Below are positions 7,215 through 32,192 of a DNA stretch of 64,000 bases, in pieces; positions within the stretch are counted from its first letter, which is position 1; each line of letters starts with the position of its first letter. The stretch is from positions 1-64,000 of the forward strand of contig JAGCVL010000003.1 of assembly GCA_017962365.1 (NCBI GenBank), written 5' to 3'. The notes under the pieces were generated by a model. The model did no database searches and was not told where the DNA came from. It saw nothing but the letters and a program-made list of their open reading frames with translations. The position numbers and the translations under genes are program-made. The stretch is from Candidatus Saccharimonadota bacterium (lineage in GTDB: Bacteria; Patescibacteriota; Saccharimonadia; Saccharimonadales; Saccharimonadaceae).

Positions 7215-7691
7215 ATGCCGCGTAAAACTACTAAATCTCTGGAACGTAAAGTTAATCCAGATCGCAAATATCAGTCAATCTATGTGCAAAGACTTATCAA
7301 TAAGTCAATGTTAGATGGCAAAAAGCAAGCTTCGGAGCGCGCAGTTTATGCCGCTATTGAAGGTGCTGCAAAGAAATTGAAATCTGAAAACCCAGTCGAG
7401 GTGCTCGAAAAGGCAATCGCTAACGTATCGCCGGATTTTGAGGTAAAATCTCGCCGTGTTGGTGGTGCAAACTACCAGATTCCATTCCCAATTGCAGGCC
7501 ATCGTCAAATGCATTTTGCTTTCACCTGGATGGTGCAGGCAGCACGCGCTCGCAAGGGTATGCCATATGCGAAGCGGCTTGAAGCTGAAATCGTTGATGC
7601 TTACAATGAGACTGGCGCAGCCTTCAAGAAGAAGGAAGATTGCCACCGCATGGCTGAAGCAAACCGCGCATTTGCACATTTTGCTCGCTAA
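7215..7691 (+). CDS. rpsG: 30S ribosomal protein S7
   Basis: 158 residues. Nucleates assembly of the 30S head. Signatures: MPRK start, KVNPDRKYQS, GGANYQIPFPI (usual GG-x-xYQVPV) and the final MAEANRAFAHFAR. The GAGGG ribosome site lies inside the end of rpsL, so the pair is translationally coupled. Confidence 0.98.
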   Translation: MPRKTTKSLERKVNPDRKYQSIYVQRLINKSMLDGKKQASERAVYAAIEGAAKKLKSENPVEVLEKAIANVSPDFEVKSRRVGGANYQIPFPIAGHRQMHFAFTWMVQAARARKGMPYAKRLEAEIVDAYNETGAAFKKKEDCHRMAEANRAFAHFAR

Positions 7692-7710
7692 AAATTGTCT
7701 ACAATTTTCG

Positions 7711-7747
7711 ATATGCTTATGTTATAATTGACATAAGCATATTTTTT
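7711..7747 (+). terminator. Terminator of rpsL-rpsG with the gap -10 box in its loop
   Basis: Perfect 11-bp inverted repeat ATATGCTTATG / CATAAGCATAT (7711-7721, 7732-7742) followed by TTTTTT. The 10-nt loop holds TATAAT (7723-7728), placed correctly to be the -10 element for gap, whose ribosome site AGGAGG is at 7748-7753. Confidence 0.75.
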
Positions 7748-7757
7748 AGGAGGTAGG

Positions 7758-8759
7758 ATGATAAAAGTTGCGATTAATGGGTTTGGGCGGATTGGCAGAA
7801 ATACGTTTAAAATTTTGAATGAACGTAAAGACGCTGAAGTTGTTGCGATTAATGACATTACTGACGCAAAGACTTTAGCGCATCTTTTGAAACACGATTC
7901 AACGTACGGTACTTACGAAAAAGAAGTCGGTGCTGAGGATGGCGTCATCATGGTGGATGGCGTAAAAATCCCAGTCTATGCGGAGAGAGACCCGGCCGCT
8001 TTACCGTGGAGGGATCTCGGCGTAGATGTAGTACTTGAGGCGACTGGGTTATTTACCAAACCAGAGCTAGCTAAGGCACACATCGACGCTGGAGCAAAAA
8101 GGGTGATTATTTCAGCCCCAGCAAAAGGTGACGGCGCGAAGACCATAGTACTAGGGGTAAATGAAGAGATTGTGGAAGATACTGACGCAATTTTGTCAAA
8201 TGCATCATGCACGACGAATTGCATCGCACCAATCATGAAAGTACTCGAAGATAACCTAGGCGTAGACAAAGCCATGATGACGACGGTCCACTCATATACT
8301 GGCTCACAGCGTATATTGGACGCGCCAGCCAAGGACTTGCGCGAAGCTAGGAGTGCCGCCGAAAACATCATCCCGACAACCACTGGAGCATCAAAAGCCG
8401 CAGCGCTAACTATCCCAGCTCTTAAGGACCGCTTTACGGGTCTTTCAGTGAGAGTACCAACCCCAGTTGTATCGTTGGCAGATATTACTGCCATTGTAAA
8501 ACGCGACACCACCAAAGATGAATTAAATGAGCTTTTCGTAAACATCTCTAAAGAACCGTACTATGAAGGTATTATCGGCGTGACTAGCGAGGAGCTAGTA
8601 TCATCCGATTTCATCGGTGATCCGCATTCTTGCATTGTTGATTTGCCACTCACTGATGTCGTAGGCGGCAACATGATTAAGATTGTAGCCTGGTATGACA
8701 ATGAATGGGGGTATTCGAATCGTTTGGTTGAGCTAGCATTAAATTACGGAGAAAACTAG
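7758..8759 (+). CDS. gap: Glyceraldehyde-3-phosphate dehydrogenase
   Basis: 333 residues. Oxidises and phosphorylates glyceraldehyde-3-P to 1,3-bisphosphoglycerate with NAD(P)+. The Rossmann start is INGFGRIGRNTFK. The active-site cysteine is C151 in NASCTTNC, and the C-terminal end has WYDNEWGYSNRLVEL. First gene of a packed run gap-rpiB-rpe-pfkB-LOG with overlaps or 2-nt gaps. It fits a pentose phosphate to phosphoketolase to lower glycolysis route together with the phosphoketolase at 44397 and enolase at 11589. Confidence 0.97.
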   Translation: MIKVAINGFGRIGRNTFKILNERKDAEVVAINDITDAKTLAHLLKHDSTYGTYEKEVGAEDGVIMVDGVKIPVYAERDPAALPWRDLGVDVVLEATGLFTKPELAKAHIDAGAKRVIISAPAKGDGAKTIVLGVNEEIVEDTDAILSNASCTTNCIAPIMKVLEDNLGVDKAMMTTVHSYTGSQRILDAPAKDLREARSAAENIIPTTTGASKAAALTIPALKDRFTGLSVRVPTPVVSLADITAIVKRDTTKDELNELFVNISKEPYYEGIIGVTSEELVSSDFIGDPHSCIVDLPLTDVVGGNMIKIVAWYDNEWGYSNRLVELALNYGEN

Positions 8760-9860: not shown

Positions 9861-10849
9861 TGGCTAGGATCGTATCAATTGGATCGGCGACGCAGTATAT
9901 TTATCTGATTGACCATGACGATTTAAAACCAACCACGATTGGCAAAGAAGCAATTTTTGGAAAAGTATTAGTCGGCTCCGAGGTCGACATTGACCGATTG
10001 TTATATAGCGTAGGTGGTGGTGGTATCAACTCGGCAATTTCATTCGCACGCTACGGACACGAGACCATACTAATGACAAACATTGCACGCGATGCGGCAG
10101 GAGACGCTATTCTTAGAGCGCTGGATCGCGAGGAGATTGATAGTAGCTATGTGGAGTTTTCATCCAGCAAAACCACCGGTACATCAATAGTCTTGCTTGA
10201 CTCTAAAAGTGGGGAGCGGACAATTTTGGCTTGTCGCGGGATAAGTGAAAAGTTCAATAACTTCACAGTGCAAGATTTAGACAAAATACAACCGGATTGG
10301 CTATATGTCACAACTTTGTATGGTGATTTAGCAACGACTTTAGCATTTTTTGAAAAGGCAAATGTGATGGGGACTAAAATAATGTTTAATCCTGGCGCGA
10401 GAGAATTAAACTATCCGCGCGAACTTTTGAGACTCATGAAATATGTAGATGTGCTCATTCTAAATAAAGCCGAAGCTTCAAAATTAGTGCCAGGAGCAAC
10501 ATTGGCCGAGTTGCTATACCATCTGAACGGATATGCCCCGATAGTAATTATCACTGATGGCATGATGGGCGGGATTGCAGGCAATCGCGAAGCCAAAGAG
10601 ACATACCGATTCGGCATCTATGAAGATATCAAGGTGCGCGACGTAACCGGAGCGGGTGATGCATTTGGCTCTGGGTTCCTTGCGGCATATGCTGACGGTA
10701 AGAGTTTTAGAAAATCTCTAATATTTGCATCCGCCAATTCCACTGCCGTGGTTTCCAAGATTGGTGCAAATACCGGCATACTCACTAGTGATGAAGACCT
10801 ACATCCGATGATGATACAAAAGTTTAACCTGAAGGAGGATTTATGCTAA
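9860..10849 (+). CDS. PfkB/ribokinase-family carbohydrate or nucleoside kinase
   Basis: 329 residues. Motifs: GGGGINSAISFARYGHE near the N-terminus, and the ATP/anion-hole signature DVTGAGDAFGSGFLAAYADG with the catalytic Asp of GAGD. The substrate cannot be read from sequence; ribose, a nucleoside or a 6-phospho sugar are all possible. Operon position next to rpiB and rpe suggests ribose or nucleoside salvage feeding pentose phosphates (inference). The start ATG overlaps the rpe stop (TAATG) and its end overlaps the next gene by 7 nt. Confidence 0.85.
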   Translation: MARIVSIGSATQYIYLIDHDDLKPTTIGKEAIFGKVLVGSEVDIDRLLYSVGGGGINSAISFARYGHETILMTNIARDAAGDAILRALDREEIDSSYVEFSSSKTTGTSIVLLDSKSGERTILACRGISEKFNNFTVQDLDKIQPDWLYVTTLYGDLATTLAFFEKANVMGTKIMFNPGARELNYPRELLRLMKYVDVLILNKAEASKLVPGATLAELLYHLNGYAPIVIITDGMMGGIAGNREAKETYRFGIYEDIKVRDVTGAGDAFGSGFLAAYADGKSFRKSLIFASANSTAVVSKIGANTGILTSDEDLHPMMIQKFNLKEDLC

Positions 10850-11544
10850 AGGCTGAGGAAGAATTACTAAAAAAACTATCAATCGCAGACATTGAGCGAG
10901 CGAATGCGTACGCAAAAGATTTGGGACAAGGCTTGCAAATAGTGCGGTCATTTCCGCAAGGCGTAACGGTTTTCGGATCTGCAAGGCTATCACAGGATAA
11001 TAAATATTGCAAACTGGCATACAAGCTCGGCGGTTTACTTGCAAAAAACGGCCATGCAGTAGTGACCGGTGGCGGACCCGGTATTATGGAAGCGGCCTCG
11101 CATGGCGCGTATGAAATTGGTGGACGGACAATTGGGCTTAATATCACTTTGAAACACGAACAATTTCCAAATCCATATCTCACGGACTGTCTGACGTTTG
11201 AATATTTCTTTGCACGAAAAGTAGCGCTGGCGATGGCGGCAAAAGTCTTTGTCTTTTTCCCGGGTGGATTTGGGACGATGGATGAGCTGTCAGAAATTTT
11301 ATGCTTGATGCAAGAGGAAAAGATGCCGAAGATGCCGGTGTTTCTAGTCGGAAAGTCCTACTGGAAGAGCTTTGATAAAATTATCCGCGAGATGACGAAA
11401 CTTAAGATGATTGGCATTAAAGACACCGATATATTTAAAATTACTGATGACGTAAATGAGATAGTAAAAGCCGCCAACCGCATCGGTCATCCGAAAATTT
11501 CAGAGAACTTCTACGACGGGTTCCGCGAAGCGAATGCCGTATAG
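10843..11544 (+). CDS. LOG-family nucleotide-binding protein (TIGR00730-like)
   Basis: 233 residues. Rossmann-like protein with the two LOG signatures, here GGGPGIMEAAS and PGGFGTMDELSE. Characterised members are cytokinin riboside 5'-monophosphate phosphoribohydrolases or nucleotide 5'-monophosphate nucleosidases that release a base and ribose-5-P, which would fit the ribose-5-P operon (inference). An AAGGAGG ribosome site sits inside the end of the kinase gene. Last gene of the operon, with a terminator immediately downstream. Confidence 0.85.
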   Translation: MLKAEEELLKKLSIADIERANAYAKDLGQGLQIVRSFPQGVTVFGSARLSQDNKYCKLAYKLGGLLAKNGHAVVTGGGPGIMEAASHGAYEIGGRTIGLNITLKHEQFPNPYLTDCLTFEYFFARKVALAMAAKVFVFFPGGFGTMDELSEILCLMQEEKMPKMPVFLVGKSYWKSFDKIIREMTKLKMIGIKDTDIFKITDDVNEIVKAANRIGHPKISENFYDGFREANAV

Positions 11545-18383: not shown

Positions 18384-21439
<3,056 letters not shown>

Positions 21440-21796
21440 TGAGAGAAGTTGCAACTACGCTAAAAGAAGATTTAATGAGTAATAATTACTCACCTGATCT
21501 CTTTTTCTCTCAATAAACGTACACAAAGCCATTATATCACGGATTGTAAAAAATACCCAAATAGACACCCTCAAAAGCGAAGATTTTTTTTGCAAAAGTA
21601 GTAGGGGGTCGTTCCCACTATATTTTTTGTTTCGATTTTGGCCGGGGTCAGTCCCCCAGGGGCTCCGATTGTAAACCCCTGCGAAGCTAGGGGTGAATTG
21701 GTGGGTGCTATAGCTTCTTAAATTGACTTCTCTTTTAAAAGTCCGTCGTAGTAATTGTCGGACGATTTTCTAGTCGTTTTCTTACTCGTCCGTTTT
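21440..21796. other. Non-coding left end of the element with several palindromes
   Basis: No gene seen. Contents: the palindrome TGAGTAAT-A-ATTACTCA (21476-21492), nested inside GAGAGAA / TTCTCTC (21441-21447, 21505-21511); a hairpin TAGTAGGG / CCCACTA (21599-21620) followed by TATTTTTT, terminator-like on the plus strand; and a G/C-rich cluster where CCCCT (21676-21680) can pair with AGGGG on either side (21658-21662 or 21689-21693), giving mutually exclusive stems. Possible recombinase-binding sites, an origin or a terminator; which of these is unknown. Confidence 0.5.
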
Positions 21797-21997
21797 TTAG
21801 CCTTTGTGGTGGTTTTTTGTGGTTTTGTCGTTTGCCGTGCTAGTTTCTAAAACCTTTTTTATCGCTTTAATGCCAATAAACAGTACCAAACCTATCACTA
21901 GGCAAGCCCCAATAATACGCCCTGCGTAATATGTCCACTCGGGTGCACCTGCTCGCACTAGGTCTTTGGCGGTGTCGCTTAATTCTGCAAAATACAT
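21797..21997 (-). CDS. Small single-pass membrane protein of the element
   Basis: 66 residues, unrecognised. A short polar N-terminus, one strong membrane helix (residues ~22-45, GRIIGACLVIGLVLFIGIKA), then a basic, Thr/Asn/His-rich tail. Start preceded by AAAGGTAAATAAG. Last of four minus-strand genes spaced 4-21 nt apart, probably one transcript. The size and topology fit holins and many phage or plasmid accessory proteins, but no function can be assigned. Confidence 0.6.
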   Translation of the reverse strand: MYFAELSDTAKDLVRAGAPEWTYYAGRIIGACLVIGLVLFIGIKAIKKVLETSTANDKTTKNHHKG

Positions 21998-22018
21998 CTT
22001 ATTTACCTTTCTTTTTAG

Positions 22019-22438
22019 TTAATAACGGTCTCTTAACTCAAAGTCCTCTAGGTCAACATCACTTTTTAGTTTGCCCATTTTTGCTAAACATATCTTAACT
22101 ATCGCTATCTTTTTCTTGTCGTCTGTCCACTCTCGCTTGCAACCAAGGTTCTGCGTGCATATATGGCTAAACAGGCAACCAAAGACGATGTTTTTAACTA
22201 TCGAGTAAAAGGCTAACATTAACAAAAAAGTTTTATCTATATCGGTAGTCTGACTTAATATAAGTATGACTACGACCTCAATTATGCCAACTACTACCAT
22301 ACCGCCTACTGACTTATTGGCGGTGTCCGACCCGTCTATACCTCTGACTAATTCGTCATTGCAGTAGTCCGTATCGTGTTTATTTACTGTGCCTAGTGTG
22401 GCTATCATATAATCATTATATTCTTTATTGGTTGCCAT
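22019..22438 (-). CDS. Hypothetical two-helix membrane protein of the element
   Basis: 139 residues, unrecognised. MATNKEYNDYM start with AAAGGTAAG upstream; the longer in-frame start inside the previous gene is rejected. Two hydrophobic segments (residues ~48-66 and ~75-98) are joined by a short loop, with cysteines near the second. The C-terminal half is soluble and charged (WTDDKKKIAIVKICLAK). Follows the 106-residue gene after 4 nt. Confidence 0.55.
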   Translation of the reverse strand: MATNKEYNDYMIATLGTVNKHDTDYCNDELVRGIDGSDTANKSVGGMVVVGIIEVVVILILSQTTDIDKTFLLMLAFYSIVKNIVFGCLFSHICTQNLGCKREWTDDKKKIAIVKICLAKMGKLKSDVDLEDFELRDRY

Positions 22439-22442
22439 ATTT

Positions 22443-22763
22443 TTACTTACCTTTCTTTTTAGCCATTGTTGCCGCGGCCTTATTAATAGTATAAACGATA
22501 ATTGATTTTGCTCCTTCAAATTCTCGTTGCCAGTCTTTTAAAGAATAACTGTCAACGGTTTTTATGGCTTGTTTTTCAGTCATTCCGTTATCCATAAGAC
22601 TGATTACAGATAAATCATATAGTATTGATGGGTCGCTTGGAGCTATTTTCCTTAGTTCTGTTGCAACCTTGACTCCATATATTTTAGTGAGGTCTTTCCA
22701 CTCATCATTGATAAACTTTATATCTAATAACCTTAGGGCTAAATCTTCGTGGAGGTCATTCAT
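22443..22763 (-). CDS. Hypothetical small helical protein of the element
   Basis: 106 residues, unrecognised, soluble and mostly helical, with a lysine-rich end (AKKKGK). AAGGGGT ribosome site overlaps the end of the zinc-ribbon nuclease gene, 8 nt upstream. Residues ~55-75 (DNGMTEKQAIKTVDSYSLKD) could be a small helical DNA-binding or protein-binding segment, but no clear helix-turn-helix is seen. Confidence 0.55.
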   Translation of the reverse strand: MNDLHEDLALRLLDIKFINDEWKDLTKIYGVKVATELRKIAPSDPSILYDLSVISLMDNGMTEKQAIKTVDSYSLKDWQREFEGAKSIIVYTINKAAATMAKKKGK

Positions 22764-22771
22764 TGCCTTAT

Positions 22772-25174
22772 TTACCCCTTCAGATTGTTATGATATTTTG
22801 CTGAGCAATTACGACAACCTCTGGCAATTTTTCTCAGATTACGTTCACGTATTCTGGCTTGCCACTCTTTACCGCACTTCGGGCATTTCCACCAAGCATA
22901 TTTACTGGATACTGCTAAAACTTGTTCTGGTCGTAAGCCTTTGTTCTTCTCATAATTCCATTCTTTTGCCAAACCAGGATTCACTGTTGCAAGGTCGTTG
23001 TAACCTAGCAATACTATCCTGTTTGAACATACCGGACATCCGCGTCCGGTAGCACGATTTGCTATGGAGGCTTCCCATTCGTGACCTTTTTCACATATCC
23101 ACCAAACTTTTTTTGGGGATTTAGCATATACTTGCTCTGGTTTCAGGTCGCCATTTTTCGTATAATTCCATTCCTTGGCCAAGTCTGGATTCTTGGCTGA
23201 AAGGCTGTCCTTGATATCTGTAACGACTGATCTTAGCTTTGCGCTTCGTTTATGCCCACATTTACGGCATCCATAACCACCTAGTGCTCGTGAATATACT
23301 GGTGCTTGCCACTCGTATCCACATTCTGAACATTTCCACCAAGCTTTATATTTCGACCCCGCATTGAGTATGGCTGGGTCCACGGTGTTTTTATAGTAAT
23401 CCCATTCTTTTATAAGCTCATTGTGTGTTTTGATTAGTGACTTTTCTTCCTCACCTTTTTGGTATCTTGCATAAATATTGCCATAGTCACGGTCAACATT
23501 GATATCAAATTTTTTATCACCGATTACGATTAATAGTACTTGTTTTATTGGCTCATTCAAATAACTGTAGTTATGGCTTAGCTTTTTAATCTTTATGTCG
23601 GTAGAGGTGCTTTTAAGTGGTGGCAATTTTGGTTCTCTAATTCTTATCAACTGAATCCCAAGTTTTTTACATAGCCTATTCTTTCTTAAGTCTTTTTCCT
23701 TACTGTTATGATAATATTGACCGTCATACTCTATTGCAGTGGACATACTTGGGATAAAAATATCTAATTCGTAACCTTTAACTCTTTTGTTTTCTTCCAC
23801 AGCTATACCGTATTTTTCAAGGTAATAGCCGACGGCTTTTTCTGGTATTGATGTGCGTCTGTTTGATGAGCAAATAGGGCAATGCACGTTTTGATGATGC
23901 CTGCTCTCTACAGTTGCTTGCCATTCGTGGCCTAGCTTACATTTCCACCAGACTTTTTTGGGGGAACCTGCTATTATGTTTTCTGGTTTTAAATTGCCAT
24001 TTCTTTCGTAATTCCACTCTTTGGCCAATTCGGGATTTATCGTTGTCAAGTCGTTATGGCCAGTAATAACTACTTTATTAACACATACTGGACATCCACT
24101 ACCATTTGCTCTACTAACTACAGTTGCTTGCCATTCGTGTGCGCATTCTGAGCATCTCCACCAGACTTTTTTCCCTGAACCATACAAAGTGTTTTCTGGT
24201 TTCTTCTCCCCATTTTTTTCATAATTCCATTCCGAGGATAATTTTGGATTAATGGTGGCCAGATCATTGTAGCCAGGCCATACTTTCTGATTGATACAAT
24301 ATGGGCAGAATCCGCAGCAATTTGGCATTGTTTTCCATTCGTGACCTTTTTCGCACTTCCACCATACTTTTCTGTTTGAACCCGCTGCGATATCGCTTGG
24401 TTTTAAGTCACCATTTTTTTCATAATTCCAATTTTTTGCCAAATCTGGCCTAGTGGTGGCTAGATCATTTATTCCTGCAACTATTAGCTTGTTCGCACAA
24501 ATTGGGCATCCTCGATAGCCTTCTTTTGTTCTACTCAAGACTGATGCTTGCCACGTATGCCCTTTGTTGCATTTCCACCACACTTTTGTGATACTACGAA
24601 CTGGAACATTTTCGGGCTTTAACTCACCATTTTTTTCATAGTCCCATTCGGCCGAAACTCTTTCGTTACAAGATGCCAGATCATTGATGCCCGGCTTGAC
24701 ATAGTAGCTTCGGTCTAATTGCTTGAACGTGCACTCTTTGCAGGTTGTAGTACCAGATTTTGCTTTGGCATAGATAGTTGTTTGCCACTCTCTACCGCAT
24801 CTAGAGCACTTCCACCATACCTTTTTATTAGAACCTGCTGCTAAATCCTCTGGCTTTAGATTCTGGTTCTTCTCATAATTCCATACCTTAACAACATCTG
24901 GAAAAACTTTCAAAAGGCTTCTGTTGGGTTCTTTAAGTGAAGCATTGTTTTTACCAGTTTTAAGGTGTGCACACCGAGGACAACCGTGTCCTTTTTTTCT
25001 GACACTAATTTGGGTTTTCCATTTGTGTCCGCAGTCCTTACAAACCCAATAAGCTTTTTTCGTGCTATTCGTAAATAATACGTCTGGATTCAATCCAAGT
25101 TTATTATTCGCTTCAAAATCCCACTCGGATAGGAGCTTCGTCTTAGGAACAGCAATTGCATTATTCTGATCCAT
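22772..25174 (-). CDS. Nine-repeat zinc-ribbon (DUF4379/treble-clef-like) protein with an embedded nuclease domain
   Basis: 800 residues. Six repeats of ~65 residues, a nuclease-like insert (~residues 430-520), a linker, and three more repeats to the C-terminus. Repeat pattern: DLAT-NP-LAKEWNYEKNG followed by KPE, a KVWWKC-x2-C or C-x2-GH segment, HEWQA, and a second GCPxC pair. Pfam's probable zinc-ribbon DUF4379 is the closest family I recall. The insert has the layout of DUF559/Vsr-like PD-(D/E)xK enzymes: YELDIFIPSMSTAIEYDGQY, then LCKKLGIQLIRIRE. Start at 25174 because TATAAT (25189-25184) is 9 nt upstream. First gene of the leftward element operon. Predicted DNA endonuclease; target unknown. 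Confidence 0.8.
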   Translation of the reverse strand: MDQNNAIAVPKTKLLSEWDFEANNKLGLNPDVLFTNSTKKAYWVCKDCGHKWKTQISVRKKGHGCPRCAHLKTGKNNASLKEPNRSLLKVFPDVVKVWNYEKNQNLKPEDLAAGSNKKVWWKCSRCGREWQTTIYAKAKSGTTTCKECTFKQLDRSYYVKPGINDLASCNERVSAEWDYEKNGELKPENVPVRSITKVWWKCNKGHTWQASVLSRTKEGYRGCPICANKLIVAGINDLATTRPDLAKNWNYEKNGDLKPSDIAAGSNRKVWWKCEKGHEWKTMPNCCGFCPYCINQKVWPGYNDLATINPKLSSEWNYEKNGEKKPENTLYGSGKKVWWRCSECAHEWQATVVSRANGSGCPVCVNKVVITGHNDLTTINPELAKEWNYERNGNLKPENIIAGSPKKVWWKCKLGHEWQATVESRHHQNVHCPICSSNRRTSIPEKAVGYYLEKYGIAVEENKRVKGYELDIFIPSMSTAIEYDGQYYHNSKEKDLRKNRLCKKLGIQLIRIREPKLPPLKSTSTDIKIKKLSHNYSYLNEPIKQVLLIVIGDKKFDINVDRDYGNIYARYQKGEEEKSLIKTHNELIKEWDYYKNTVDPAILNAGSKYKAWWKCSECGYEWQAPVYSRALGGYGCRKCGHKRSAKLRSVVTDIKDSLSAKNPDLAKEWNYTKNGDLKPEQVYAKSPKKVWWICEKGHEWEASIANRATGRGCPVCSNRIVLLGYNDLATVNPGLAKEWNYEKNKGLRPEQVLAVSSKYAWWKCPKCGKEWQARIRERNLRKIARGCRNCSAKYHNNLKG

Positions 25175-25304
25175 ATATGAAATATTATACATCGTATAGT
25201 AAAATTCGTCAACAATAATTAGATTACCTAGCAATTGGGGTTTGATTGATTTGCTATATCCAGAAAAAATGATATAATATAATTAATTAAACACAATATT
25301 ATAG

Positions 25305-26084
25305 ATGCAAGAAATGACCACTAAAATCTGTAGGGTGTGTGGCGAAGAAAAACCTCTGGACGAGTTTCGTATCAGAGGAGATTCTGGTAAGCGTAGAACG
25401 GAGTGTAAAAGTTGCTTAAGCAAGTATTTAAAACAATATAGGTCTGAGAATAAGCAACGCATTTCTGAGCTCAATAGAAGATGGAGAAATGAGCATAAGG
25501 ATGAGTTGTCAGAGTACCAGCTTAACTGGCAACGGAATAATAGAGAAAAGTGTCGTGCCTATAATAAGAAATCTAATCAAAATATGACAGAAGAAAGAAG
25601 AGCAAGGGCTAATTTGCGTTCCAAAAAATATCGTGATACCAGAAAAGATGACCCAGAGTTTAGAGAATATGTAAGAATTAAAAATCGTGAGTCGAGTAAG
25701 CACCGGCGTAAAAAAATTACAGCTTATGAAGAGAATCGCAAAAAGGTTGACCCAGTTTTTAAATTAAAGAAACAGATTAGGAATGAAATTAGGACTTCTT
25801 TTAACCGTAGAGGGTTCAGAAAGTCGGCACGTACTGAGGGAATAATCGGTTGCACCTTGCAAGAGTTGTACGACCATCTATGTAAGACTTATTTGATTAG
25901 ATATGGAAAAAAGTATAATGGGAACGAGCTAGTACATATAGACCATATTATCCCACTGGCGAATGCCCATACCGAAGAAGAAGTTATAAGGCTGTGTAGG
26001 TGGGATAATCTACAGCTATTAACCGCCGAAGACAATCTAATAAAAAATGCAGATGGGTCATTCCCATCATATAGGGCTATTTAG
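25305..26084 (+). CDS. HNH endonuclease-like protein with N-terminal zinc knuckle
   Basis: 259 residues. N-terminus has CRVCGEEKPLDEFRIRGDSG and CKSC (four cysteines, a zinc-binding 'CxxC, CxxC' unit common in phage HNH proteins). The middle ~150 residues are very basic and helical (many Lys/Arg). The C-terminal HNH core is VHIDHIIPLANAHTEEE followed by RWDNLQLLTAEDNLIKN. Divergent from the zinc-ribbon nuclease across 130 bp. Could be a homing-type or defence nuclease; a TATAAT at 25272-25277 is ~27 nt before the start. Confidence 0.85.
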   Translation: MQEMTTKICRVCGEEKPLDEFRIRGDSGKRRTECKSCLSKYLKQYRSENKQRISELNRRWRNEHKDELSEYQLNWQRNNREKCRAYNKKSNQNMTEERRARANLRSKKYRDTRKDDPEFREYVRIKNRESSKHRRKKITAYEENRKKVDPVFKLKKQIRNEIRTSFNRRGFRKSARTEGIIGCTLQELYDHLCKTYLIRYGKKYNGNELVHIDHIIPLANAHTEEEVIRLCRWDNLQLLTAEDNLIKNADGSFPSYRAI

Positions 26085-26128
26085 CTGAACCAAAAGATGA
26101 TATAATTGGGTGAAACGGGATAGCTAAA

Positions 26129-26887
26129 ATGACTTTAAGATTTTTTGTACCAGGAGAGGATGCCGTGTTTGAGCAAATCTCTAAACAAAGAGAGGAAAGT
26201 GGGCCCAATGAGGACTACTTCATTTATTTTTTAAGCGATGGGCAAAAGGGATTACAGTCTAATGGTAATGCAATTAAGTATGGGATTGGGGGCTCTGAAC
26301 AAGTCGAAATTATCCGTAAGCTGGTTGAAGATGGTTTTTTTGATGCGGATTGGGTCGTATCATACGACCAGGGTAAATTTAATCTTAAGTATCATAATGA
26401 GGAGTGGCTACAGAAAAACTATTCCGCTATGGATTTATCTAATTTTGTTTTTGAGGATTGCAATTATAGAGATTATTTCTTTATAAACCTGGATTTTAAC
26501 CGTATTAGGGCTATTAATGATAACTGCCGGGCTATATACCCGTGTGAATTGTGCTACGATGAAGAACAGTACAGCTTTTATGTCAAACGTAAGGACAATG
26601 ATGAGAGTTATTATATTAGTAAGCTCAAGAAGGATATGGTGCCATTCCAAGTGTTATTGCACGCATACAAGAGTAAACATATGCACGCTACAAGAGAGGG
26701 TATGAACAAAAGTGGTGATAGAAGGGTCTACATAGGAAAAGCATCAATTGCTACACAAGTGTTTGCCGAGAAAAGTGTAGTAAGAAATGAATTATCGATG
26801 TTTGTGACATTGAGGAGTGAAGATATCGATATTAACAAAGAGGCTAACCTCACACTTAATCAGTTAAAGGCTTTAGAAAAGGCTTAA
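26129..26887 (+). CDS. Hypothetical protein of the element
   Basis: 252 residues, unrecognised. Soluble, rich in Tyr, Asp and Asn, without signal peptide, cysteine motif or P-loop. The N-terminus contains DYFIYFLSDGQKGLQSNG; the C-terminal third is basic (HAYKSKHMHATREGMNKSGD). The sequence CGGGATAGCTA immediately before the ATG recurs, inverted, in the leader of the primase genes (27070-27080), suggesting shared control. No clear ribosome site. The stop is abutted by the 11-bp tandem repeats. Confidence 0.6.
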   Translation: MTLRFFVPGEDAVFEQISKQREESGPNEDYFIYFLSDGQKGLQSNGNAIKYGIGGSEQVEIIRKLVEDGFFDADWVVSYDQGKFNLKYHNEEWLQKNYSAMDLSNFVFEDCNYRDYFFINLDFNRIRAINDNCRAIYPCELCYDEEQYSFYVKRKDNDESYYISKLKKDMVPFQVLLHAYKSKHMHATREGMNKSGDRRVYIGKASIATQVFAEKSVVRNELSMFVTLRSEDIDINKEANLTLNQLKALEKA

Positions 26888-26940
26888 TTTCAACTGATTT
26901 TCAACTAGTTTTCAACTAGTTTTCAACTAGTTTTCAATTG
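26887..26940. repeat. Five 11-bp tandem repeats (iteron-like)
   Basis: Unit TTTTCAACTAG at 26898, 26909 and 26920, with degenerate copies at 26887 (ATTTCAACTG) and 26931 (TTTTCAATTG). Each junction makes the palindrome AACTAGTT. The 11-bp period places every copy on one face of the helix. Located between an unknown gene and the primase operon, next to a T-rich tract. Confidence 0.75.
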
Positions 26941-27041
26941 ACCACAATAGGACGCTTTTTGTAACAGATTAGGCGAAGTTTTTTTCGCTGTCTTTTTTAC
27001 TGTCGACGACATTTTTTGGGTCCCCTGATAATCTGGTAATA

Positions 27042-27092
27042 GGATAGCCGGATGGGTTACTTAATCTAATAGCTATCCCGGTTGAGTAACCC
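27042..27092 (+). promoter_or_regulatory. Pseudoknot-like structured leader of the primase operon
   Basis: A 12-bp stem (27054-27065 with 27081-27092, including GGGTTACT / AGTAACCC and two or three G-T pairs) has a 15-nt loop that contains GCTATCC (27072-27078). That loop sequence is complementary to GGATAGC (27042-27048) just upstream, giving interleaved pairing. It ends ~30 nt before the small gene at 27123. Confidence 0.5.
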
Positions 27093-27122
27093 CCCTTAAG
27101 AGTATTGGAAGGTTTTTATATA

Positions 27123-27278
27123 ATGAAAATCTCAAAAGAGCTCGTCCAGGCTTTTAAAAGTGTATACGAGCGCAAGCTCGGCCAAAATATCTCCGCCGAA
27201 GAAGCTGAGCAAAAACTATCGGATCTGGCGGAGTTAATAAGAATAATTGAAAATAGGAGAAGAAAAAATGGATATTAA
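27123..27278 (+). CDS. Small helical protein upstream of the primase
   Basis: 51 residues: MKISKELVQAFKSVYERKLG, then NISAEEAEQKLSDLAELIRI and a basic tail. This resembles the short helical proteins (pattern 'F...Y...G..IS.EEA...L..L..L') often found beside integrase or replication genes in Patescibacteria; that comparison is from memory. Its last 11 nt overlap the primase/helicase start, suggesting coupled translation. A GGAAGG-like ribosome site lies at 27107-27112, 10 nt before the ATG. Confidence 0.65.
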   Translation: MKISKELVQAFKSVYERKLGQNISAEEAEQKLSDLAELIRIIENRRRKNGY

Positions 27279-29259
27279 TCTGAACTACGCGGGCAACGTA
27301 AACTATGACTCTAAGCAAGAGGTGGGGCAGGTGCCTGAAAAAAATAAGAGGAAACAGTCTCTTGAGGCGATGGTGCGCAATATTCATAAAAGGACGCACG
27401 AGGATAAGAGGGTTCGCAGCTATTTTCACGAGCGTGGCATCAATAATGCTAGCATTGACAGGTTTAGGCTAGGCATATGGAAATTTGGGGGGTATGATAG
27501 GTTTGTTATCCCAGTTCTTGATAAGACTGGAAAAGTGGTCTATTTAAAGTTGCGTATAACACCCGCTGACGAGCCGGCTGAAACATTATCGGAAGTAATG
27601 GGTCAAGAGACGTCGATTAAGAAATATGAGATTTATCCAACTAATGCGGCTCAAGTGCTCGTGGGGGAGGATGAATTAAGGAAAAGTACGTCAAGTGATG
27701 TGCTCATCTGTAAAAGCGAGTTAGACCGGATAATTGCCATACAGGAAGGTGTAAAAATGCCCGTAGTTACAGGGGGCGGCCTAGTCCAGTCGTTCAGAAA
27801 AGAATGGATAGACTCCTTAAAGAACGCACGTAATATTTACCTTTGCTTGGGCGAGAGTGCCGTTGGCAAGCGTGGTGCAACGATACTTGCAAAACGTTTG
27901 GCGGAGCATATACCATCAGCGTCCATCTACATGATCTCATTACCGTTCGAGGATAATGTGTGTGCTGACCTTACAGATTACTTTGTTGAGAAACGTGGTA
28001 CTACTGATGAGCTCTTTAACAAATACGCAAAGTGTCATTGTGGCGCAGAACCAATTGACGTGTCTACATTTAAAGAAATGACTGTCGATGATGTGGCGAA
28101 TGTCCTCGATTCAACTATTAAAAACAATCGCGTAAACAAGGTTATCACCTTCCTGGCGATGCTTCTAGCTTACACGGAAGATTCCCAATTAAATGTAATG
28201 TTTAACGCACAAAGTTCCACGGGCAAGACCTATATTACCTTGGAGGCGTCAAAATATTTCCCAGCCCAAGACGTGAAGGTGTATGGTAGGACAAGCAAGA
28301 CGGCCTTCTACTACAATACCAGCTTAATGAAGTCTGACGATAGCGGAGGGTTCTATATAGACCTTGAACGACGCATTTTAGTTTTTGCAGAGCAGCCGGA
28401 CATGCAACTACTTGAAAACCTGCGTTCGTTTTTATCACACGACCTCAAGAAGACGCCTTTTATTCTTACAAATAAGAGTAAAAATGGGCGGAATACTGCA
28501 GAAGAGGGATATATTCTAGGCTTCTCATCAACAATCTTTTGCTCGGCTAACATGAGGATTGACGAGCAGGAGCAAACTAGAAGCCTTATCCTTAGCCCAG
28601 AAAGCACAGAAGAAACGGTGAGGGCTGGAGTTGATGAAAGCATTGCAAGGAATAGTAACAAGGATGCCTACAATACTAAACTCGACGCCAATGAAGCACG
28701 AAGAGCGTTGATGGAGAGAGTCCTTTACATAAAAAACCTTAGTGTTGGACAGATAAATATTGATGATAGTGAGTATCTAAAAACACGCTTTTACGAAAAG
28801 CTTCGCTCCACGCCACCTAGAGTGCAGCGCCAGATTGGACATTTTATATCATTAGTAAAGGGTATAGCCTTGCTAAATGCACCTTTTAGAATGGTAGGAG
28901 ACAAAATTATTGCCACCAATAAGGATGTTGATGAAGCCATGAAGCTTTGGAGCGTTATAAATGAAAGTATGTTTTATGGCGTACCTCCACAGGCACTGGA
29001 TTTTTATAAAAACTTCGTCATACCTGCCTATCGTCTAAAGAATAAAACAGATGGCGGCGAGAAGGGTATCACCTATGACGAGCTAGCACATTATCATTTT
29101 GAGCAGACCGGCAACTATCCAAATCTAGAAATGGTAAGAAAAATGTTTATACCGGCACTGCAGTGTGCTTCGCTCATTAGCTATGAAAAAGATGATGATG
29201 ACAAGCGGCAAATGCTAATTAAACCCATGGTCTTCTTCGATAACACGCTTGAGAAGTAA
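27268..29259 (+). CDS. Primase-like and AAA+/helicase-like replication protein of the element
   Basis: 663 residues. The N-terminal ~270 residues resemble a DnaG/TOPRIM-type primase without a CHC2 zinc finger: ERGINNASIDRFRLGIWKF, then DRFVIPVLDKTGKVVYLKLR, and a TOPRIM-like stretch LICKSELDRIIAIQEGV followed by ARNIYLCLGESAVGKRGA. The C-terminal half carries an ATPase with the P-loop AQSSTGKTYIT (~residues 310-320) and an acidic hydrophobic strand RILVFAEQPD as possible Walker B. A C-terminal winged-helix-like region follows. Start at 27268 with GGAGAAG upstream; a TTG start 21 nt earlier is unlikely. Probable replication initiator of a plasmid-like state. Confidence 0.78.
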   Translation: MDINLNYAGNVNYDSKQEVGQVPEKNKRKQSLEAMVRNIHKRTHEDKRVRSYFHERGINNASIDRFRLGIWKFGGYDRFVIPVLDKTGKVVYLKLRITPADEPAETLSEVMGQETSIKKYEIYPTNAAQVLVGEDELRKSTSSDVLICKSELDRIIAIQEGVKMPVVTGGGLVQSFRKEWIDSLKNARNIYLCLGESAVGKRGATILAKRLAEHIPSASIYMISLPFEDNVCADLTDYFVEKRGTTDELFNKYAKCHCGAEPIDVSTFKEMTVDDVANVLDSTIKNNRVNKVITFLAMLLAYTEDSQLNVMFNAQSSTGKTYITLEASKYFPAQDVKVYGRTSKTAFYYNTSLMKSDDSGGFYIDLERRILVFAEQPDMQLLENLRSFLSHDLKKTPFILTNKSKNGRNTAEEGYILGFSSTIFCSANMRIDEQEQTRSLILSPESTEETVRAGVDESIARNSNKDAYNTKLDANEARRALMERVLYIKNLSVGQINIDDSEYLKTRFYEKLRSTPPRVQRQIGHFISLVKGIALLNAPFRMVGDKIIATNKDVDEAMKLWSVINESMFYGVPPQALDFYKNFVIPAYRLKNKTDGGEKGITYDELAHYHFEQTGNYPNLEMVRKMFIPALQCASLISYEKDDDDKRQMLIKPMVFFDNTLEK

Positions 29260-29267
29260 ACACTAAT

Positions 29268-29300
29268 ATGTTATTATCTAATTGTTCCACTTCTAGTTAA
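29268..29300 (+). CDS. Possible 10-codon leader peptide
   Basis: ATG at 29268 reads MLLSNCSTSS and stops at TAA 29298-29300. It covers the 5' arm of the long inverted repeat described next. No clear ribosome site, so translation is uncertain. Confidence 0.2.
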   Translation: MLLSNCSTSS

Positions 29301-29392
29301 TACACGAGACTATATTTATTTCCGGCAATGTAGGGTGACCGATACGGAAAGGGTTTCGTGCTCTGGAAGTGGAACAATCGGTCGCCCTTTTT
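29281..29392 (+). promoter_or_regulatory. Attenuator-like leader of the recombinase gene
   Basis: Two interleaved inverted repeats. IR1: 13-bp perfect ATTGTTCCACTTC (29281-29293) with GAAGTGGAACAAT (29366-29378). IR2: GGGTGACCGAT (29333-29343) with ATCGGTCGCCC (29377-29387, one G-T pair), followed by TTTTT (29388-29392), a classical terminator. The 3' arm of IR1 overlaps the 3' arm of IR2 by 2 nt and the arms alternate in order, so the two stems compete. Confidence 0.6.
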
Positions 29393-29409
29393 GGGCTGAA
29401 AGGATTGAT

Positions 29410-31005
29410 ATGAATTATCGTAACTCAAACTTAAAAGCCGTGTTATATGCGCGCAAGTCCACTGAATCTGAGGATAAGCAAGTCCAGTCTATCGACGACC
29501 AAGTTCGTATTATGAAGGAGGTTGCGAAGAACGATGGATTGAAAATAATCGATGTATTACATGAATCCAAGAGTGCAAAAGCCCCTGGTGCACGCATCGT
29601 TTTTAAACAAATGATGCGTGACATAGAGGATGGCAAGTATGATGTAATCCTTGCTTGGGACACAAGCCGCCTATCACGCAATTCTAAGGACGGTGGAGAC
29701 TTACAATGGCTGCTCGACAGTGGTACGTTATATGGAATCCGTACACATGAAAAGTGGTACCACAATAACGATGAGTTGCTTTTTACCATCGAAAATGCCA
29801 TGAATAGTCGATTCATTAAGGAGCTGAAAATTAAGGTGAAGCGCGGCATGGACTCAAAGGCCGACAAAGGAGACTACCCAAAAAGCGCTCCGGTAGGCTA
29901 CCTGAATGACCGCATTAATAAAGTAATAATCAAGGACCCGATTATGTTTGATCGTGTTCAGACGCTATGGAAGAAAGCCCTGTCTGGTGCATATTCAGTA
30001 TCTGAATTGTCCAGAATTGCTACTAATGAGCTGATGATACGTACGCCACAGAAGAAAAGGTCTGGCGGTAAACCACTGTGCTACAATGCAGTACTTAACC
30101 TATTTAAGAACCCTTTTTATATGGGTAAATTCAAGTGGGGTAACAAAGTATATAATGGGAATCACCCCCCTATGATTACCGAAGCCGAATTTGAACAAGT
30201 ACAAAAAATGATAAACCCTAAGCATTCTAGCAGGCCACAAAAAGACCCTTATCAATTTCTTTTACGGGGATTACTTACGTGTGCAGAGTGTGGGTACGCA
30301 ATTGTAACAGAGAAAAAATACAAGAAATTGAAAGATGGTGCTGTTAAGGAATATCATTACTGCCATTGCTGCGGCAAGCATCCGGAGAAAAGATGCAAGA
30401 ACCGGTCAGTCTACGTAGCTGAATCTGAGCTTGTCAAACAAATCAAGAAAGAACTCTGCAAATATGCTATAGATGAAGACTTCTATAAGATTGCGATTAA
30501 GGCGCTAGCCGAAGAAGATGATATGAAGACTTCTGAACAAGATGAGAGAATTGCGCAAATCAATAACCAGATATCCAAGAAGAAGACCGATTTGGATTCA
30601 TTGAGACGAGCGGTTTATACTGGTGTGATTACGGATAATGCTTTCTTCTTATCAGAACAAGAATCCTTAAAAAATGAAATTGATAGCCTCGAAGCAGAGC
30701 GCAGCAAGGTCATAGCCGCCGCCGAAAACTGGCGAGACAAAGCGACTGATATTTTCATGTTTGCGCGTTATGCTAAGGAAGACTTCGATAGTGATGACTG
30801 GGAGCGCAAAAGAGCTGTAATCAAACGTCTCGGAATGAATCTTAAATTATCGGGTCGAACCATACAATTTACCCCTGTAAAATACCTCGTTCCTATAGCA
30901 AATTATCACGAAGAATTGGAAGCTAAAAAAGAGGCGGCTCGAACCGCTCCAGAACAGAGAAAAAAAGACCTCAAAGAGGGCTTAATTTCACTTTGGTGCG
31001 CCTGA
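29410..31005 (+). CDS. Large serine recombinase (integrase)
   Basis: 531 residues. Catalyses site-specific integration and excision. N-terminal resolvase domain with nucleophile S17 in YARKSTESEDK, then SIDDQ and AWDTSRLSRN. Recombinase domain follows, then a zinc-ribbon with CAECGYAIV and a CHCCGKHPEKRCKN cluster, and a coiled-coil region (~380-450). Start at 29410 (AAAGGA upstream) rather than 29335, since the longer frame runs through the terminator hairpin. The final codons Trp-Cys-Ala and the stop are made by the right att core and the tRNA-Leu gene. In the circular form the frame would continue for ~26 more codons. Confidence 0.93.
   Translation: MNYRNSNLKAVLYARKSTESEDKQVQSIDDQVRIMKEVAKNDGLKIIDVLHESKSAKAPGARIVFKQMMRDIEDGKYDVILAWDTSRLSRNSKDGGDLQWLLDSGTLYGIRTHEKWYHNNDELLFTIENAMNSRFIKELKIKVKRGMDSKADKGDYPKSAPVGYLNDRINKVIIKDPIMFDRVQTLWKKALSGAYSVSELSRIATNELMIRTPQKKRSGGKPLCYNAVLNLFKNPFYMGKFKWGNKVYNGNHPPMITEAEFEQVQKMINPKHSSRPQKDPYQFLLRGLLTCAECGYAIVTEKKYKKLKDGAVKEYHYCHCCGKHPEKRCKNRSVYVAESELVKQIKKELCKYAIDEDFYKIAIKALAEEDDMKTSEQDERIAQINNQISKKKTDLDSLRRAVYTGVITDNAFFLSEQESLKNEIDSLEAERSKVIAAAENWRDKATDIFMFARYAKEDFDSDDWERKRAVIKRLGMNLKLSGRTIQFTPVKYLVPIANYHEELEAKKEAARTAPEQRKKDLKEGLISLWCA
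30994..31003. repeat. Right attachment-site core (attR)
   Basis: TGGTGCGCCT, the complement of the encoded CCA end and 3' acceptor strand of tRNA-Leu; identical to 21427-21436. Confidence 0.8.
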
Positions 31006-31084
31006 CTAGACTCGAACTAGCACAGCCGTAGGTTTGGCCACTACCACCTCAAGGTAGCGTGTCTACCAATTCCACCACAGGCGC
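30994..31084 (-). tRNA. tRNA-Leu (anticodon GAG)
   Basis: Minus-strand class II tRNA, 91 nt with encoded CCA. Acceptor GCGCCTG / CAGGCGC, D-arm GTGG-AATTGGTAGACA, anticodon stem CTACC / GGTAG with loop TTGAGGT (GAG), long variable arm, T-arm GCTAG-TTCGAGT-CTAGT, discriminator A. Its 3' end is the integration site, and it overlaps the end of the recombinase gene tail to tail. Confidence 0.93.
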
Positions 31085-31187
31085 ATATATATATTATAAC
31101 ATACTTTCTTAAAATCGGCAGAATTTTATAAAAATATAAACAGCTTTAACGCAGAGTGTGCTATAATGGAATAAACAAAGGAGGCAA

Positions 31188-32192
31188 ATGAAGAGAATTG
31201 TTCGTGGGGTTATGACATTGATAATGTTTGGCTTGGTTGGGGCGCTAACAATAATGCCAAATGTCGCCTACGCTGAAGAAGACACATCAGATGAAATAAA
31301 AAAAGCGGCGACCAGCATCAGCATTAGTCCTGTAAGCAAAATCTTACAGCTCCAGCCAGACACAATATATGAGGATTCGTTTAAGGTAATGAATAATGGC
31401 AGCGACGATATGCCATTTGAGGTATACGCTTCGCCATATTCCTACACCTATTCAGAAGAGACCGAAGAGTACCAGCTGGGCTTCAGCCGGGAAAATAACT
31501 ACACACAAATTACGCGCTGGATTACATTTAAAGGCCCTGACGGTAAATATACGACTAGGCCAAAGTTCGTAGCAAAGCCAGGTGAGAGCGTGGAAGTGAA
31601 CTACCGAATCTCTACGCCAACAAGTTTACCGGCTGGTGGTCAATATGCTGTACTCTTTGCGCATACTTTATCTAGTACGACTATCTCTGGTGGCATTAAA
31701 ACTGAAGCGAGTCCTGGACTCGTAGTCTATGGGCGCGCCAGTGGTGAGACTATTACTACTGCCGAAATTTCAAACCTTGAATTGCGCCAGTCAACAACAG
31801 ATGCGGAGGGAAACACCAGAAATACCATCAACGCTTCCGGTAAGTCTAAAAATACTGGCAATGTGGATTTCACAATGAGTGGCACATTAAAAGTCGAGGG
31901 CATATTTGGGCGTGTTTATTATGAAACAGCACCAAATGAAGCACGCGTGTCGGTAATTCCGGATGCCGAATTGTCGGTTGTTGACGAATGGGAAGATACC
32001 CCCTACTTTGGTCTATTTAAGGCAACCTGGACCGTGAGAGCCGCAGGCGAGAGTGAGACTATTTCGCGAATGATTTTGATTTTGCCAGCGCCAATCATCG
32101 TGGCTATGGTTTTACTATTGACAATCATAATTGTGTGGATTATAATTATGGTTAGGAAGCGCAAAGAACGCCGGTCTAGATTTACCGTTTAG
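31188..32192 (+). CDS. Secreted, C-terminally anchored protein (DUF916-like)
   Basis: 334 residues. Signal peptide with hydrophobic core ~10-26 and cleavage after AYA. The N-terminal extracellular domain has SISISPVSKILQLQPDTIYE and PAGGQYAVLFAHTL, resembling DUF916 / WxL-interacting-type Ig folds. A membrane helix (~300-325) and a basic tail RKRKERRSR end the protein. Good AAAGGAGG site. The neighbouring gene encodes another surface protein of similar layout, and both probably act at the cell surface; partner unknown. Confidence 0.75.
   Translation: MKRIVRGVMTLIMFGLVGALTIMPNVAYAEEDTSDEIKKAATSISISPVSKILQLQPDTIYEDSFKVMNNGSDDMPFEVYASPYSYTYSEETEEYQLGFSRENNYTQITRWITFKGPDGKYTTRPKFVAKPGESVEVNYRISTPTSLPAGGQYAVLFAHTLSSTTISGGIKTEASPGLVVYGRASGETITTAEISNLELRQSTTDAEGNTRNTINASGKSKNTGNVDFTMSGTLKVEGIFGRVYYETAPNEARVSVIPDAELSVVDEWEDTPYFGLFKATWTVRAAGESETISRMILILPAPIIVAMVLLLTIIIVWIIIMVRKRKERRSRFTV

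Follow-up and report, generated by a model that had tools for sequence, protein, structure and literature searches.

Nine zinc modules around a central EDxHD/Vsr-type nuclease domain in a mobile element of Saccharibacteria: a candidate modular DNA reader with specificity separate from insertion site

In a 64,000-nucleotide stretch from a Candidatus Saccharimonadota bacterium (assembly GCA_017962365.1, contig JAGCVL010000003.1, positions 1 to 64,000; the whole of it is called the window here), a minus-strand gene at 22772-25174 encodes a protein in which nine treble-clef zinc modules surround a single predicted nuclease domain of the EDxHD/Vsr type, and this gene is cargo of a ~9.6-kb serine-integrase element inserted in a tRNA-Leu gene. 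With moderate confidence, we propose that the protein is a site-specific modular endonuclease directed in trans at competing DNA rather than at its own insertion site. Each module would make a few base contacts via the N-terminal turn of a short helix and the preceding loop, the modules would jointly specify one long target, and the cutting domain amid the string of nine modules would cleave it. As cargo of serine-integrase elements in tRNA genes, the gene would change element and site with its specificity retained, and the DNA attacked in trans would most likely be competing mobile DNA, be it rival elements, phages, or uninfected target loci, so that the carrier would gain from the cutting.

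The open reading frame (ORF) extends over 22772-25234 on the minus strand, giving 820 amino acids from a TTG at 25234 or 800 from an ATG at 25174 (residue 21 in the 820-residue numbering used below). The closest homologue, a saccharibacterial protein of 78% identity (locus L018), has an ATG start that aligns with this ATG; the TTG start is less likely. Nine matches to PF14311 (DUF4379, "probable treble clef zinc finger") were detected, all above the curated cut-off of 24.5 bits (54-82 bits each, E 1e-14 to 3e-23) and with a summed E of 7e-160, which far exceeds chance. The original prediction, made from the letters alone, had placed six zinc repeats before and three after a nuclease domain, and this is the order found: modules 1 to 6 at 24968-25135 (63 bits), 24728-24892 (63 bits), 24488-24655 (72 bits), 24293-24442 (54 bits), 24074-24241 (79 bits), and 23864-24028 (73 bits), then the nuclease domain (about residues 458-600), then modules 7 to 9 at 23252-23416 (69 bits), 23018-23182 (82 bits), and 22799-22972 (68 bits), all on the minus strand. 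The repeats are indeed regular, but the length of ~65 residues given for them was slightly low, with a core of about 55-57 residues and a period of 67-79; identity between repeats is 35-61%. Zinc-ligand pairs (CxxC or CxxGH, then CPxC) are present in the modules, and among 704 aligned modules of the window protein and its relatives Cys occurs at columns 33, 52, and 55 in 98-100% and Gly-His at columns 36-37 in about 90%. Against L018, the ratio of nonsynonymous to synonymous substitution rates is about 0.07 for the protein as a whole and 0.04 for its nuclease (rough values, as synonymous sites are saturated), and the reading frame is therefore under purifying selection. The protein is the sole DUF4379 protein of its 625-kb genome; considering that relatives occur in only 5 of the 151 genomes of the family, the gene is accessory.

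The nuclease domain (23435-23860, minus strand) was recognised by AlphaFold2 modelling, Foldseek search, profile match, and residue conservation, the residues concerned being E465, D491, E502, H509, D515, and K518. Its model, built with 61 aligned relatives, has a mean predicted local distance difference test score of 91 and shows the element order of PD-(D/E)xK enzymes; the top Foldseek match in the PDB is the catalytic domain of the homing endonuclease I-Bth0305I (3r3p, E 2.6e-4), and NGO0050 and Vsr are among the leading matches. The sequence profile of the same alignment likewise matches I-Bth0305I (E 7e-7) and, at about 0.05, Vsr, and Pfam matches to the Vsr mismatch endonuclease and the MTES_1575/DUF559 restriction endonuclease families fall under the cut-off. 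D491 and E502 are invariant among the 61 relatives, and S462, E465, G505, and K518 are conserved in at least 90% of them; in a larger set of 106 sequences, conservation is 0.91 for E465, 0.99 for D491, 0.96 for E502, 0.75 for H509, 0.84 for D515, and 0.94 for K518. The active site runs E502-Y-D504, then H509, D515, and K518, with D504 standing in place of the canonical lysine of the third (ExK) motif, as expected for the Vsr branch. The PD-(D/E)xK-like domain first proposed thus stands as to superfamily and acidic residues but lacks the canonical lysine, and EDxHD/Vsr is, judging from the model and the alignment, the better name for this branch of PD-(D/E)xK; the conserved residues can probably be matched to the ordered E-D-x-H-D motif.

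The idea that variable residues at fixed positions make the array a modular reader survived a test on alignment columns that it could have failed. Within-protein differences between the 704 modules were compared with differences between orthologous modules in 23 non-overlapping orthologue pairs, such that a tolerant column is variable in both comparisons and a specifying column varies between modules of one protein but is kept between orthologues. Columns 22, 23, 26, 44, 45, 47, and 50 behave as specifying columns (ratio 0.46-0.52), and columns 3, 14, 15, 17, 19, and 34 served as tolerant controls (0.63-0.90). Because the specifying columns had been chosen after inspection, columns were re-ranked in split halves, and the held-out gap between the six highest and the six lowest was 0.21 (0.12-0.28), being zero or less in none of 500 splits. 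Columns 22-26 form the loop ahead of the zinc hairpin, and columns 43-47 match the short helix after it in the full-length model; the commonest residues at columns 44 and 45 (S, A, N, Y and N, S, D, H, respectively) are mostly polar, and the specifying columns may touch bases. This pattern supports modular recognition. We also put forward, more tentatively, that the array is a naturally code-like DNA reader, in which each treble-clef module would use about seven fixed positions (loop 22-26 and helix 44-50) to set a short sub-site and modules could be freely added, lost, and swapped on both sides of the central nuclease.

By scanning genome contigs, 317 relatives were found, of which 80 were retained, from Saccharibacteria, many Firmicutes, Gastranaerophilales, Elusimicrobia, and one Methanomassiliicoccaceae archaeon. 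In nearly all bacterial proteins the nuclease has modules to either side of it, 6 to 13 per protein; most viral proteins, L104 and L112 being among the exceptions, carry 2-6 modules and then a C-terminal nuclease. Gain and loss affect whole modules: L089 and L090, with 8 and 6 modules, respectively, share 95.8% identity over the part common to both. A block of four modules is repeated in L026 (up to 13 modules), which may be an assembly artefact.

Carriage by a mobile element, also part of the original prediction, was borne out. A serine recombinase or its remnant lies near the nuclease gene in all 10 Saccharibacteria contexts with enough flank, the family-wide background being about 1.7 PF07508 matches per genome (one in the window genome). 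The elements sit in different tRNA genes, namely tRNA-Phe (L019 and L022), tRNA-Gln (L023 and L064), tRNA-Trp (L027), tRNA-Gly (L039), and tRNA-Glu (L188); L189 has only a recombinase remnant, with a tRNA-Val nearby. The L064 element is near-minimal, consisting of recombinase, nuclease, and acetyltransferase genes enclosed by an 18-bp repeat of the tRNA 3' end. In the related L018 element, which lies in tRNA-Leu(tag), neither the HNH gene nor the primase remains and most of the recombinase is gone; it keeps its left end, an intact nuclease gene, and 3' recombinase fragments.

No similarity was detected between the flanks of relatives that are themselves 74-85% identical, and several orthologue pairs keep their putative reading residues nonetheless. 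L030 and L037, which share no flank similarity, are identical at 0.88 of specifying versus 0.52 of control columns, and L022 and L023, whose elements are in tRNA-Phe and tRNA-Gln, at 0.70 versus 0.33; ten pairs pooled give 0.67 versus 0.47. Conversely, on two Rhodococcus plasmids the same site, with flanks 85-96% identical, holds proteins of 7 and 9 modules without one-to-one relation. Location and read target thus appear to be separate. The protein could instead be a free-standing homing endonuclease that cleaves its own insertion site where this is still empty and spreads into it through repair, as its phage relatives have been proposed to do: its closest nuclease, I-Bth0305I, is a homing enzyme, and phage proteins with zinc modules and an EDxHD/Vsr domain are called homing endonucleases (PMC12350094), in agreement with PHROG annotations. 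However, simple homing predicts the opposite on both counts. Because orthologues with kept reading columns sit at unrelated sites and one site carries unrelated modules, simple homing to the insertion site, which had been among the functions first suggested, is not favoured, and we regard the homing explanation as possible but rather unlikely. Among the relatives at 74-85% identity, a common insertion site, the mark of the homing class, was not found. There is also no intron or intein at the locus; in an Rfam search of 19000-32000 the tRNA was the sole match, with no intron family, and the nuclease ORF is free-standing. Considering that the gene moves between elements and sites with its specificity kept, action in trans is most likely.

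In 6 of 69 loci, versus 1 of 162 control spans (p 0.003), the nuclease gene lies between direct repeats consisting of a terminator or a neighbouring gene's 3' end, which might be taken in favour of homing; however, such target duplications mark integrases and are not made by homing. We read them as attachment-site duplications of elements without their former integrase, as in L018. The repeat is a tRNA 3' end with its terminator in L029 and a terminator-like hairpin in L094, and repeated terminator hairpins are also seen in two viral loci outside this count (L098 and L106). At L082, the secA 3' end and terminator are present on both sides (7700-7770 and 10860-10930), the coding part with differing codons and the 3' part identical, like an attachment site with a carried replacement end. 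At L055, a C-terminal extension of rlmD (7657-7923) is partly repeated beyond the nuclease gene (10316-10462); this stretch is in no other locus of L018-L138, and several Butyrivibrio genomes have matches to the extension that are separate from the rlmD core. Empty sites were sought for L055 (rlmD 3' end) and L082 (secA 3' end), and related genes were found but no clean pair with and without the insertion. Given that L018 keeps both element ends and an intact nuclease gene with the rest of the element lost, the protein might also act as a selfish retention factor, cleaving the attachment site of its own element once this is empty and so making element loss lethal. A reader aimed at its own attachment site was rejected, since L022 and L023 keep their reading columns in different tRNA genes, and we consider this explanation extremely improbable.

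Several observations weigh against a modular endonuclease acting in trans on competing DNA. The pair L036/L047 reverses the column trend (0.35 at specifying, 0.50 at control columns), and column conservation could partly reflect packing between modules, which is the main alternative to base contact. The only solved DUF4379 structures are those of kinetoplastid mitoribosomal proteins (mS66 and mt-SAF33), which are ribosomal and not mobile-element nucleases, so that RNA binding is a possible alternative, and Toxoplasma mitoribosomal proteins are among the Foldseek matches of the nuclease fold. The modules might then bind structured RNA as those ribosomal proteins do, with the Vsr-like domain cutting or binding RNA. 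However, the near-invariant acidic residues are as in the DNA enzymes Vsr and I-Bth0305I, and the family is spread on mobile elements and phages beside other DNA endonucleases; binding of DNA and not RNA would be expected from this, and an RNA-directed protein appears highly unlikely. Furthermore, defence genes are not a constant feature of the immediate neighbourhood, and PADLOC, which has no model for this protein, assigned no family to it. This bears also on the view that the protein is a chromosomal, restriction-like anti-phage nuclease that benefits the host, with elements serving merely as transport. Strong purifying selection, module swapping at one site that resembles the turnover of restriction specificities, and some neighbours that match defence models (e.g. 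AbiP2, Stk2, and PtuA) are consistent with it. However, no family was found more than three times among 126 neighbours tallied, so that a conserved operon or defence partner was rejected, and neither a methyltransferase nor any other recurrent partner appeared in this tally; we judge the anti-phage explanation unlikely. A role in element exclusion or defence, as first suggested, is possible.

Zinc fingers of the DUF4379 kind joined to an EDxHD/Vsr nuclease are already known from phage introns. A large unrecognised group of phage group I and II intron endonucleases, with 3-5 CapR/DUF4379/DUF723-related domains followed by an EDxHD/Vsr-like domain, was described in 2025 (PMC12350094); these enzymes have the same module and nuclease families as the window protein, and their modules were proposed to bind DNA, but their nuclease is C-terminal and they belong to phage introns, whereas the window protein has 6 + 3 modules around a central nuclease and lies in an integrative element, not an intron. 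T5orf172 homing endonucleases with repeated CapR/DUF723/"DUF4397" zinc fingers, whose domains are shuffled and which have been re-used in conflict between phages and satellites, were reported in 2023 (PMC10448857). In these, too, repeated zinc modules that undergo gain, loss, and exchange serve to read DNA in modular fashion, but the nuclease is of the GIY-YIG type, and no Pfam match to the T5orf172 (GIY-YIG) catalytic domain was found in the window protein. I-Bth0305I (covered in the review PMC3943268) is the best fold and sequence match of the nuclease domain, from which the window protein differs in that its DNA-reading part would be the DUF4379 array on both sides. The Vsr mismatch endonuclease and MTES_1575/DUF559 families resemble it in fold and in part of the active site but have no zinc array. 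New here are the central-nuclease architecture with 6-13 modules in Saccharibacteria, Firmicutes, other bacteria, and one archaeon; the seven columns in the loop and treble-clef helix that are most variable between modules and yet conserved module by module between orthologues; and the retention of these columns by orthologues at unrelated sites, together with one plasmid site bearing two proteins of unrelated modules. In the literature searched, we found no description of this architecture, its spread on integrative elements, the column test, or the split between specificity and location.

If the modules do read DNA through fixed residues, they would represent a large and mostly unannotated family of modular-reader nucleases shared by phages and many phyla of rumen and gut bacteria, would provide a new scaffold to study and perhaps design DNA recognition, and would show how the tiny genomes of Saccharibacteria and their neighbours fight over mobile DNA. 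A specificity that travels independently of the insertion site makes the question of homing or weapon testable, and, if reading is code-like, hundreds of gut bacterial and phage proteins would permit decoding, as for TALE repeats or C2H2 fingers.

The window element is bounded by a 10-bp direct repeat, AGGCGCACCA, with a recombinase present and an intact tRNA at one end. Its left attachment repeat, a copy of the tRNA-Leu 3' end (TGGTGCGCCT on the plus strand, 21427-21436), lies at the extreme end of ligA. The right attachment site is formed by the 3' end of tRNA-Leu(gag) (30994-31084, minus strand), which supplies the second copy. Over 21427-21439, the left copy forms the last ligA codons, and a TAG directly after it, just inside the element, terminates ligA; without the element, the ligA frame would run on into the tRNA-Leu gene. 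An empty allele of this insertion was not seen: ligA was found in 37 genomes of the genus, and none of the 14 loci inspected has tRNA-Leu after ligA. The ligA of L039 (Saccharibacteria) is 80% identical to that of the window, in a similar region, which together with the nearest homologue of the nuclease points to a saccharibacterial source. Between the repeats lie two small ORFs, the nuclease gene, an HNH/endonuclease-VII-like gene (25305-26084, plus strand; phrog_1035, E 6.5e-15), an ORF of unknown function, a DnaG-like primase/ATPase-like replication gene (27247-29259, plus strand; weak TIGR01391, phrog_6444, and PADLOC RTasDnaG-like matches), and a large serine recombinase gene (29335-31005, plus strand; PF00239, PF07508, and PF13408), the 3' end of which overlaps the tRNA 3' end. 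The recombinase 3' end is in or just beside the 3' end of the target tRNA (Leu, Phe, Gln, Trp, Gly, or Glu) in the window, L019, L022, L023, L027, L039, L064, and L188, and in Saccharibacteria its frame often terminates within the tRNA.

Zinc nucleases occur in tandem in L023/L191, L019, and L046, a short one (ZZNZ in L023) being paired with a long one, and relatives of the short partner (L013 and the second gene of L019) have IEPG in place of IEYDG at the active site. At L060 (1134-5300), a serine recombinase continues in frame into a ZNZ array whose first module is truncated, either a deletion junction or a real fusion; it was not used, a deletion junction being the probable cause. In a Rhodococcus qingshengii plasmid (L155), the array is unannotated and the nuclease end is annotated separately as a DUF559 protein, and many relatives are annotated merely as "zinc-ribbon domain-containing protein". 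The HNH gene, divergent from the nuclease gene, does adjoin it as first noted, but it is not a conserved partner, being absent from the L018 element, and neighbours are diverse. Near-identical short stretches, A-rich with TGATATAAT, flank the HNH gene at 25265-25281 and 26092-26106, and may be promoters or the trace of an insertion.
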